From Nitrososphaerota archaeon (lineage in GTDB: Archaea; Thermoproteota; Nitrososphaeria; Nitrososphaerales; JACPRH01): a stretch of 64,000 bases of DNA. The DNA lies in assembly GCA_016190055.1 (NCBI GenBank), contig JACPRH010000041.1, positions 1 to 64,000 on the forward strand, read 5' to 3'. Of the stretch, positions 47,691 through 51,912 are shown piece after piece. Position 1 is the first letter of the stretch. Each line of letters starts with the position of its first letter. The notes beneath the pieces were generated by a model that saw only the letters and a program-made list of their open reading frames with translations, was not told the origin of the DNA and searched no databases. The position numbers and the translations under genes were made by a program.

Positions 47691-47779
47691 GGGCCAGTCG
47701 TCTAGTGGTTAGGACAACAGCAGTGCGCGGTCAAGCCCTTACACGGCGTAGGTCCCAGGTTCGAATCCTGGCTGGCCCA
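47691..47779 (+). tRNA. tRNA-Val(TAC) with a 16-nt non-canonical intron (47719-47734) between positions 28 and 29
   Basis: Acceptor GGGCCAG/CTGGCCC, D arm GTCT..GGAC, T arm CCAGG-TTCGAAT-CCTGG; removing agcagtgcgcggtcaa gives anticodon arm ACGCC-CTTACAC-GGCGT, fully paired; discriminator A, no encoded CCA. Confidence 0.9.
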
Positions 47780-47809
47780 CTTACGATGTTAAGTGCATAC
47801 TAGGGATAA

Positions 47810-48799: not shown

Positions 48800-49567
48800 T
48801 CACGTATCTGGTAATTCAACTATCTTTACCTCAAGATGCCCGAATCCTTCGTGAGATAGTATCTTGTCCAGCTTATGCACCTCTTTCTCAAAATGTTTTA
48901 TGAGCACTTTGGCGAGTGATTTTTTTTCACAAGCAAGAATTATATCCGTCCCTACAAAAGCTACATCTATCACACTCCTATGTGCTTCCCAGTGCGGTAG
49001 ATTTGATTCGCTCAGTAATCCGTTGTCTCGGAGTATTTCAAACAACACAGGGTTAGCTCTAGCATATGATATATCGCATTCATCTAATAGTCGAAAAATA
49101 ACGCAAACTTTTCTTAGATTCACATTATTACATATCTGTTCATTTGGTAGTTCTTCTAAATCGTAGTGGCTTGAGTGTGATTTAATGACATACTTCAGGC
49201 AATGCAGTTTATCCTTCCCTATCATGGATTCTAAGAAATTAAATCGTGGATGTTCAAGTAACTTCACGGAAGATTGGGCGTGATCTTTCCTATCAATAAG
49301 ACATCCAATATCGTGTAGCCAAATTGCAAGGCAGAGAACAAATTTTTCGTCGCTACTAACCGCACTAGTTCCAAAGTTTTCAATAAATCTCACTAAGAGA
49401 TTTAAAAGATTTCTTGAATGTATTACGCCGTGGTCAGTGTAGCCTGGAATTCCTCTTGGAAGATATGCCAGTAGTGGCTCAACTAACGCCATTACTTGTC
49501 TTAATGAAATCTCTGAGGGGGGATCTAACCCGACTATACGTAAATTGTTCTCTATATAGTAGGACAT
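48800..49567 (-). CDS. HD-domain phosphohydrolase-like protein (HD-CE-like)
   Basis: YTDHGVIHSRNLLNLLVRFIENF...LAIWLHDIGCLIDRKDHAQSS; HD metal motif. Confidence 0.8.
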   Translation of the reverse strand: MSYYIENNLRIVGLDPPSEISLRQVMALVEPLLAYLPRGIPGYTDHGVIHSRNLLNLLVRFIENFGTSAVSSDEKFVLCLAIWLHDIGCLIDRKDHAQSSVKLLEHPRFNFLESMIGKDKLHCLKYVIKSHSSHYDLEELPNEQICNNVNLRKVCVIFRLLDECDISYARANPVLFEILRDNGLLSESNLPHWEAHRSVIDVAFVGTDIILACEKKSLAKVLIKHFEKEVHKLDKILSHEGFGHLEVKIVELPDT

Positions 49568-49918
49568 CTATACGTGTCGATTCTTCCAGAACTTTTCGTA
49601 AATCATCTTTATGGTTTCAGTCGATTCTCCAGATATGTATAGTAGCTTTCCAGCTCTACCTTTTTCAGTTTCACCATATTCTGCCTTGGTGATGCCCCAA
49701 TCCTTAAGGGTAGAAAGTGCGTTCATCAGTGTTGTATGACTCATTTCATTCTTAAGATTAGTTGCTAGCAAGTTGAACCATATCTTTTTACCTTGCGAAT
49801 TGAATTTGTAAATTTCAGCCGCAACCTTGAATTCATTAGAAAGAAGATCGGATGGGTTTCGGTTGTTTAATTTATTTTTTGGCAATTCTGTCATAACCTT
49901 ATTAATTAGTGCCCGCAC
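49568..49918 (-). CDS. Winged-helix DNA-binding protein, abutting the HD gene
   Basis: KVAAEIYKFNSQGKKIWFNLLATNLKNEMSHTTLMNALSTLKDWGITKAEYGETEKGRAGKLLYIS; stop adjacent to HD start. Confidence 0.7.
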   Translation of the reverse strand: MRALINKVMTELPKNKLNNRNPSDLLSNEFKVAAEIYKFNSQGKKIWFNLLATNLKNEMSHTTLMNALSTLKDWGITKAEYGETEKGRAGKLLYISGESTETIKMIYEKFWKNRHV

Positions 49919-50056
49919 TCTAGAGTGTATTTATTAGTAATAAGGATTATGTTTCAACATTATTACATCTGAATGCATGTTAATGTTGCTCATTAATCAT
50001 TAACTCCATCTTATAGACCAGACGCTTTATTATACACCTTAAAAAAAGATGCGGTA

Positions 50057-51187
50057 TTGTTAGATAATATTCCTACTTCTGTTGAGGAACATTATGCAAA
50101 TCTAGACCCAACAAAGGTAATTTCACAGATACAATCCGAAGTGCAGCAATTTGTAAAAACAATACTATCTAACAATTCCTTTGAATCACTACTTATTGTA
50201 GGAAGAAAGTCAAAACTGCTTTATTCTCCGTTTATAGATAATAATCAAAAGCGATACCAAGTTAGATATCTGCAGCTTCGTAGGCCGATCACTAGACATC
50301 ATCTGGTTTGGGAGGGGTCCAGTGTAACTGGTAGAGCCGCCATCCTTGTTGATTCCATAAACACTGGTGAGGAGGTATCTCAGGTAATGTCGATTCTCAA
50401 GGAAGGGGGGGTCAAGATTGTTGACATTTACTGCTATTTGCTAAACCAGACAGGCACCAAACCCCTTGGGCATAAACCGATTACCATACATAACGTAAAA
50501 ACCAAGCGAGACTACCATGAAGTATCTAAGAAATTACAACTATTTTACTACAGTCGTCCTCGTCCAATTGAAGATGAGGTTATGTTTGATGCCCTACGAA
50601 TTCAAGGAGTGCCCCCCGACTGGCACAAACGCATACTTGCAGCTAGCGAAGCTGTTTTTGAGCGCCCGCTAAAACTCGAGACTGTGCGTCCTCAATTATC
50701 TTCAAAACAAGCTGCTTACCGGATCAATGTTATTACACCGTCTGAAGACCCAGTACCTTTCGATAACTGGCGTTTCTTGGGACAATTAGAAGATTATCAT
50801 TTGACTAAACGTCTTATAGACATCGAAAATATCCAACTTGGATTTAAAGCGATAAACAACGGAGACTCTTTGGACTTAGCCGTGAGCGCTACTTGTGAGA
50901 TTATATTACATACTGGCGAACTGCATTCCGGAAGAGATTGCCAGTTTAAGTCGAAGTCACTCTCTCGTTGTGCCATTAAACATGTAAGAGCGGGATCCCC
51001 AAGCAAAACAAGTAAAGAATTGGGTACAAAAATTAAAGCTATCAGAGAGGCTACATGTTACCAATGCGTCGAGAATTGCTTCTCAGGAAGAATTCTGGAT
51101 CAGCTCAGTTACCAACTTGGAAGGGGCCTAAGAACAGACGGTTATACACTCGAAGTTTTGGAATCGTCTTCCCGGCCAACTAAGTAA
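50057..51187 (+). CDS. Phosphoribosyltransferase-like protein (PRTase-CE-like), divergent to HD/wHTH pair
   Basis: PRPP-loop-like AAILVDSINTGEEVSQVMSILKEGGVKIVDIYCYL; Cys-rich C-terminal segment CYQCVENC. Confidence 0.7.
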   Translation: MLDNIPTSVEEHYANLDPTKVISQIQSEVQQFVKTILSNNSFESLLIVGRKSKLLYSPFIDNNQKRYQVRYLQLRRPITRHHLVWEGSSVTGRAAILVDSINTGEEVSQVMSILKEGGVKIVDIYCYLLNQTGTKPLGHKPITIHNVKTKRDYHEVSKKLQLFYYSRPRPIEDEVMFDALRIQGVPPDWHKRILAASEAVFERPLKLETVRPQLSSKQAAYRINVITPSEDPVPFDNWRFLGQLEDYHLTKRLIDIENIQLGFKAINNGDSLDLAVSATCEIILHTGELHSGRDCQFKSKSLSRCAIKHVRAGSPSKTSKELGTKIKAIREATCYQCVENCFSGRILDQLSYQLGRGLRTDGYTLEVLESSSRPTK

Positions 51188-51210: not shown

Positions 51211-51912
51211 TTACCGCATTAAGCCTAGCCGGTGAACCAGTCCGTACACCGCTGTCTTAGGCGCTCCGATTTCCTCCGCGATGCGAACCGGCTTATACCC
51301 AGCCTCGAAGAGCTCCGTTACTTCATTGATAATCTCAGGTATCGGGATCAGTACCTTGGTCTTCGGATCAATCGTGTAGCCTAGCGGTGGCCTGCCTTGG
51401 TGTCTCCCAAGCTTCTTACCTGTCCGCTTACCGCTTCGAGATCTGATGCTGAGTGTCCGCTTCTCATTCTCCGCATACATCCCGGACATCGTGAGCATTG
51501 ATTTACCCAGAGGGGTGGTGTAGTCTACTAACCCAACGTTCATGAACCAGATATCGATTCCCTTGTTCTTCAGCATCCTTTGAATGTAGAGTGTCTGTTC
51601 AGCATCCCTTGAGATCCGGTCGGTGTGGGTCACTATCACAGCCTCAACGCTTCCCTTCTGAAGTGCGAGTATCCTAGTCAACCCTTCCCGTTTACCTAAG
51701 TCGTTCATGAACTCTGCAGGGTGCCCGACATCACCTTCCTCAAACGCGAGTAGAACCCAGCCCCTCTCATCGGCCCATTCCTGCAACGCTTCACGTTGAG
51801 TCTGCGGGCTCAATCCCTTCCGTTTTTGTTCATCACTCGACACCCGGATATACCCGATCACCCTGTAGGGTTTCGTCTCTTCCGGTTGTTGAGGCTGATT
51901 TCGTCTCTCCAA
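51211..51912 (-). CDS. Serine recombinase/resolvase
   Basis: VIGYIRVSSDEQKRKGLSPQTQREAL, VIVTHTDRISRDAEQTL, C-terminal HTH RIAEEIGAPKTAVYGLVHRLG. Confidence 0.94.
   Translation of the reverse strand: MERRNQPQQPEETKPYRVIGYIRVSSDEQKRKGLSPQTQREALQEWADERGWVLLAFEEGDVGHPAEFMNDLGKREGLTRILALQKGSVEAVIVTHTDRISRDAEQTLYIQRMLKNKGIDIWFMNVGLVDYTTPLGKSMLTMSGMYAENEKRTLSIRSRSGKRTGKKLGRHQGRPPLGYTIDPKTKVLIPIPEIINEVTELFEAGYKPVRIAEEIGAPKTAVYGLVHRLGLMR

Follow-up and report, generated by a model that had tools for sequence, protein, structure and literature searches.

A conserved PRTase, winged-helix and HD-domain cassette on an archaeal integrative element: a candidate mobile conflict module of Thermoproteota

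Introduction

Phosphoribosyltransferases (PRTases) have been described as effectors of type III retrons (PMC12548924) and as the partner of DprA in a phage-defence system (PMC9122126). In the latter pair, ShosTA/RqlHI, the PRTase is proposed to act as an effector that is restrained or triggered by its partner (PMC9122126). Retron type III-A pairs a PRTase-fold protein with a winged-helix protein (PMC12548924), as does the cassette analyzed here, and in both types of system, as in the cassette, the PRTase works with a small partner that is DNA-binding or otherwise related to DNA (PMC12548924, PMC9122126). In contrast to retron type III-A, the cassette adds an HD protein, and unlike the DprA-PRTase pair it is archaeal, has no DprA, and its PRTase is accompanied by a winged-helix (wHTH) and an HD protein. 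Two Pfam families named for predicted conflict systems are also related to the cassette: PRTase-CE (PF24390), with which it has the PRTase fold in common, and HD-CE (PF24391), to which its HD protein belongs by Pfam score.

Results

The window, i.e., the whole stretch of 64,000 nucleotides that was analyzed, carries the HD, wHTH, and PRTase-like open reading frames at 48800-51187, exactly where the earlier note had placed them, and their coordinates agree with the abutting wHTH-HD pair on the minus strand and the divergent PRTase-like gene that it had described (Table 1). An alternative in-frame ATG at 49894 would give a wHTH protein of 108 aa. With a GC content of 39.1% compared to 47.8% for the rest, the cassette is the lowest of any equal-length stretch in the window, as expected from the AT-richness that had been noticed by inspection, and the serine recombinase suspected next to it was recovered by Pfam. 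This recombinase is part of the same mobile element, while its membership of the module is only a candidate one.

Table 1. Features of the cassette and of the element around it (positions above 64,000 lie on contig C30, beyond the window)
Feature	Coordinates	Strand	Remarks
tRNA-His	47691..47780	+	ARAGORN, Rfam
Direct repeat (14 bp), first copy	47768..47781		CTGGCTGGCCCACT; 3' end of tRNA-His
HD-CE domain hydrolase	48800..49567	-	255 aa; Pfam HD-CE PF24391
Winged-helix (wHTH) protein	49568..49918	-	116 aa from GTG; stop codon abuts HD ATG
Palindrome (12 bp)	49916..49927		CACTCTAGAGTG; perfect
Divergent intergenic region	49919..50056	.	138 bp, 29% GC
Inverted repeats	49931 and 49980
TATA-like element	about 50026..50033		TTTATTAT
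PRTase-like protein	50057..51187	+	376 aa, TTG start
Small serine recombinase	51211..51912	-	Pfam Resolvase 5.1e-27; adjoins cassette, same element
Large Ser/Thr-rich proteins	63298..67308		repeat-like segments
IetS-like subtilase with next ORF	68374..71207		subtilase L038:4375-6564; next ORF L038:6498-7208
Tyrosine integrase-like ORF (by eye)	72592..73884		431 aa; by the far repeat
Direct repeat (14 bp), second copy	73933..73946		CTGGCTGGCCCACT

The proposal of the earlier note had been staked on the co-occurrence of the three families elsewhere. They were found together at five loci with varied gene order: in the window, in the Nitrososphaerota MAG Jx357_bin35 (G540 C68, locus L052), in the genomes G541 (L083) and G413 (L084), and in Candidatus Bathycorpusculum grumuli (G232 C61, L037), where the PRTase is frameshifted. 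The divergent layout of the window recurs in L052, and the other three loci carry PRTase, wHTH, and HD in this order and in one direction. A sixth locus, G232 C144, is decayed and only its wHTH is whole. The loci of G541 and G413 are 99% identical to each other and therefore represent one evolutionary sample. The proteins of L052 are 28% (PRTase), 35% (HD), and 53% (wHTH) identical to those of the window and the proteins of L083 are 19, 26, and 25% identical, respectively, while over all loci identities to the window range from 19 to 28% for the PRTase, 26 to 36% for the HD, and 25 to 55% for the wHTH protein. This low identity, together with the varied gene order, indicates that the linkage has outlasted rearrangement. 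We are highly confident that the three genes form a genuine module that has been conserved as a whole.

The PRTase alone as a query against relatives, phages, plasmids, and IMG/VR yielded nothing beyond the decayed copy G232 C144 and two weak matches. Because this search remained nearly empty, the wHTH alignment was taken as bait, which recovered the other loci; weak wHTH matches of about E 1e-4 were left out of the locus set. Weak PRTase matches at L003 and L004 were also set aside, as was a PRTase motif at L044, which by eye belongs to an HTH-PRTase-like protein among purine-type genes. Strong family matches of the PRTase and the HD were confined to cassette loci in the genomes tested, five of which were searched for the HD. 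The PRTase was not found in G182, G214, and G336, which belong to the same genus as G232, and neither PRTase nor HD was found in G001, which belongs to the genus of the window. Surveys of 398 genomes of the phylum and 257 genomes of the class of G232 gave no further strong loci, and all relatives found fall into one other genus and the window's own genome. Two orphan wHTHs occur in G232 (C64 and C3), the first of which (L051:8157-10294) is of the cassette family and lies downstream of an AAA-type ATPase gene.

Comparison with the described systems separated the cassette from both retrons and PRTase-CE. Identity with a retron was rejected since no reverse transcriptase (RVT_1) was found in the window genome (G000, 87.5% complete) and no retron RNA was detected at the locus with Rfam; the PADLOC profile PRTase_III-A matched only L083 and weakly so (E 0.008). 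Identity with PRTase-CE was rejected as well, as the window protein had no match to PF24390 and its relatives reached 13.1-13.7 bits compared to a cut-off of 27. Over 14 genomes, this profile gave sub-cut-off matches only, and control genomes gave the same.

The HD protein of the window, in contrast, is a member of HD-CE (E 6.6e-17, 62.5 bits compared to a cut-off of 27), and the relatives in L052, L037, and L083 scored 50.1, 84.1, and 83.6 bits, respectively. The likeness to both HD-CE and PRTase-CE put forward previously is therefore retained for the HD and dropped for the PRTase. While most other HD-CE matches above the cut-off in the phylum sit in larger ORFs, the window HD is a stand-alone protein of about 250 aa that is linked to a PRTase and a wHTH. 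Residues H46, H50, H85-D86, H96, H131, D162, D165, H192, and H196 are invariant among four aligned sequences, so that H85-D86 and the other metal-binding His/Asp residues are kept in all four, and the protein is best read as an intact phosphohydrolase. A weak PADLOC match to RT_UG24 occurred via the HD domain. HD proteins on the viral contigs L054 and L102 were set aside as different and larger. At a separate locus of G232 (L036, C69:3688-4785), an HD-CE protein lies between genes that appear by eye to encode a DNA methyltransferase-like protein and a P-loop ATPase-like protein, with a TIR-like protein nearby, forming another candidate conflict locus.

For the PRTase-like protein of the window itself, neither Pfam nor PADLOC nor PHROG gave a significant family match, whereas its intact relatives in G541 and G413 matched Pfam Pribosyltran with 37-38 bits, above the cut-off. 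In an AlphaFold model built with four aligned sequences, residues ~13-167 form a block with pLDDT values of mostly 51-89 and a lower dip at about 70-90, while the C-terminal half was modeled without good confidence; the model of the L083 PRTase was of low confidence and was left out of the fold comparison. Foldseek matched this block to HGPRT, OPRT, and PyrR folds (E ~1e-7, probability 1.00), and the N-terminal domain of about 150 residues thus models as a type-I phosphoribosyltransferase fold. R50-K51 is invariant in the four aligned sequences, as are C280, C295-Q296, and C334-x-x-C337 in the C-terminal region, where C280, C295, C334, and C337 may form a metal site.

The motif ILVDSINTGEE had been proposed as the PRPP loop. 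This loop is degenerate: of the two acidic residues of canonical loops, the first is replaced by V. In an ungapped alignment, the window (LVDSINTG) and L052 (LTDSINKG) deviate from the two acidic residues and T-G of type-I PRPP loops, while L083 and L084 (LDDSARTG, within ILILDDSARTG) are canonical. Catalysis by the window copy is therefore uncertain, and it is doubtful in its clade. A degenerate loop next to invariant catalytic HD residues would suit a reversed polarity, in which the PRTase-fold protein senses a ligand or PRPP or makes a nucleotide activator, the HD is the effector acting on (d)NTPs or another phosphoester, and the wHTH represses. However, the canonical loop DDSARTG in G541 and G413 suggests active PRTases, and the PRTase is the proposed effector in other described systems (PMC12548924, PMC9122126), so that we regard this main rival as rather unlikely.

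Decayed copies bear on the same question. G232 C61 has a PRTase that is broken up over several frames next to a whole HD (84% to L083) and a whole wHTH (83%). The PRTase of G232 C144 is shortened and carries a frameshift and a stop, and the HD match ends after about 37 residues, while the wHTH is whole (92% to L052). As these breaks come from metagenome assembly, they may be assembly errors. If they are not, a broken PRTase beside a whole HD and wHTH argues against the HD as a toxin for which the PRTase would have to serve as antitoxin. The reversed polarity also tolerates the loss of the PRTase with the HD intact in G232 C61, and the decay pattern fits the PRTase as an effector and equally as a signal-maker for an HD effector; it therefore favors neither the lead model nor this rival.

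Searches of Pfam, PADLOC, and PHROG returned nothing significant for the wHTH of the window. Its family profile weakly resembles Lrs14/PadR-type regulators, with an Lrs14-like protein as the best PDB match (E 0.004), and relatives that are 55% (L035) and 53% (L052) identical to it each adjoin the same PRTase family. The TATA-like element is positioned for a leaderless PRTase mRNA, and judging from these intergenic elements the PRTase promoter appears leaderless, with the palindrome and inverted repeats as putative operator. Within ~200 bp, a palindrome of 12 bp is only weakly improbable by chance (~5% by our own estimate). A search for inverted repeats in the intergenic region of L052 came up empty, leaving the operator unconfirmed by that comparison.

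The cassette lies in an element of ~26.2 kb at tRNA-His, which extends from 47768 to 73946 and is bounded by the 14-bp repeat. Blast of the window contig against G001 showed synteny up to the tRNA-His (47781) and again from ~74013, with an uninterrupted site in G001. Together with the repeat, this makes the cassette a cargo near the tRNA end of the element, opposite the integrase-like gene, for which neither Pfam nor PADLOC gave a match. The element also encodes ParB, Prim-Pol, and a D5_N/DUF5906 protein. Towards its far end lie an IetS-like subtilase (PADLOC IetS, 4.6e-33) and, following it, a PDDEXK-like, nuclease-like protein with weak matches to Cas4/Csx1. Among the listed ORFs adjacent to the subtilase, none appeared to be an IetA-type ATPase. 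The large Ser/Thr-rich proteins of the element are possibly surface or virion structural proteins. In G540, the cassette neighbors AbiEi (2.6e-96) and a YhcG/PDC-S02 nuclease (2.7e-81), and in G541 it neighbors a TBP gene and a cytosine methyltransferase that is truncated where the contig ends.

From its position inside the element, beside a recombinase and with the integrase-like gene at the other end, the cassette could be read as lifecycle genes of the element itself, serving counter-defence or superinfection exclusion and not host defence. We consider this improbable, as relatives of the PRTase or wHTH were absent from IMG/VR and from phage and plasmid records searched by tblastn, and one homologous locus adjoins the AbiEi and YhcG genes.

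GfcR-like HTH-PRTase regulators exist in archaea, and the fold of the PRTase matches PyrR as well as HGPRT and OPRT. A PyrR/GfcR-like nucleotide-responsive regulator formed by PRTase and wHTH, with the HD as a salvage or housekeeping nucleotidase, is nevertheless very unlikely, since no metabolic genes adjoin the cassette, which is cargo of an integrative element, and its presence is patchy and accompanied by decay. The window genome also encodes five other PRTases above the Pfam cut-off; the cassette PRTase is not the metabolic PRTase of the genome.

Discussion

The candidate conflict or defence cassette of the earlier note is strengthened by co-occurrence, HD-CE membership, and a mobile, partly defence-island context, while the absence of a PRTase-CE match and the degenerate loop weaken it. 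The module is likely to be a conflict system, probably one for defence or of a toxin–antitoxin-like kind that has not been described before.

In our lead reading, to which we assign a probability of roughly 0.5, it is a mobile conflict module of Thermoproteota, either of the antiviral abortive-infection type or toxin-antitoxin-like, with the PRTase as effector or signal-maker, the wHTH as repressor or restraint, and the HD as limiter. Its gene content, linkage, changes in gene order, families or folds, mobility, and decay were observed, and its defence role, polarity, order of steps, substrates, and repression are inferred. The wHTH would bind the promoter region, whereby the module would be kept low and/or the enzymes held inactive. 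Upon a trigger, the PRTase-fold protein, being an effector or the maker of an effector signal from PRPP or a nucleotide, would act on nucleotide metabolism, and its variable Cys-bearing C-terminal region may be the sensor or target-binding part. The HD phosphohydrolase would then cleave the resulting phosphoester and thereby limit or reset the response. A more specific version, an archaea-specific build-and-break circuit without reverse transcriptase, in which the PRTase uses PRPP to produce a ribosyl-nucleotide signal or a toxic product, the HD hydrolyzes it, and the wHTH exerts control, appears improbable.

Several defence systems use PRTases as effectors or presumed effectors whose mode of action is unknown (PMC9122126). 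A compact archaeal module of PRTase and HD makes the question of how defence PRTases act directly testable, with broken and orphan copies as well as canonical and degenerate PRPP loops as usable natural variants.
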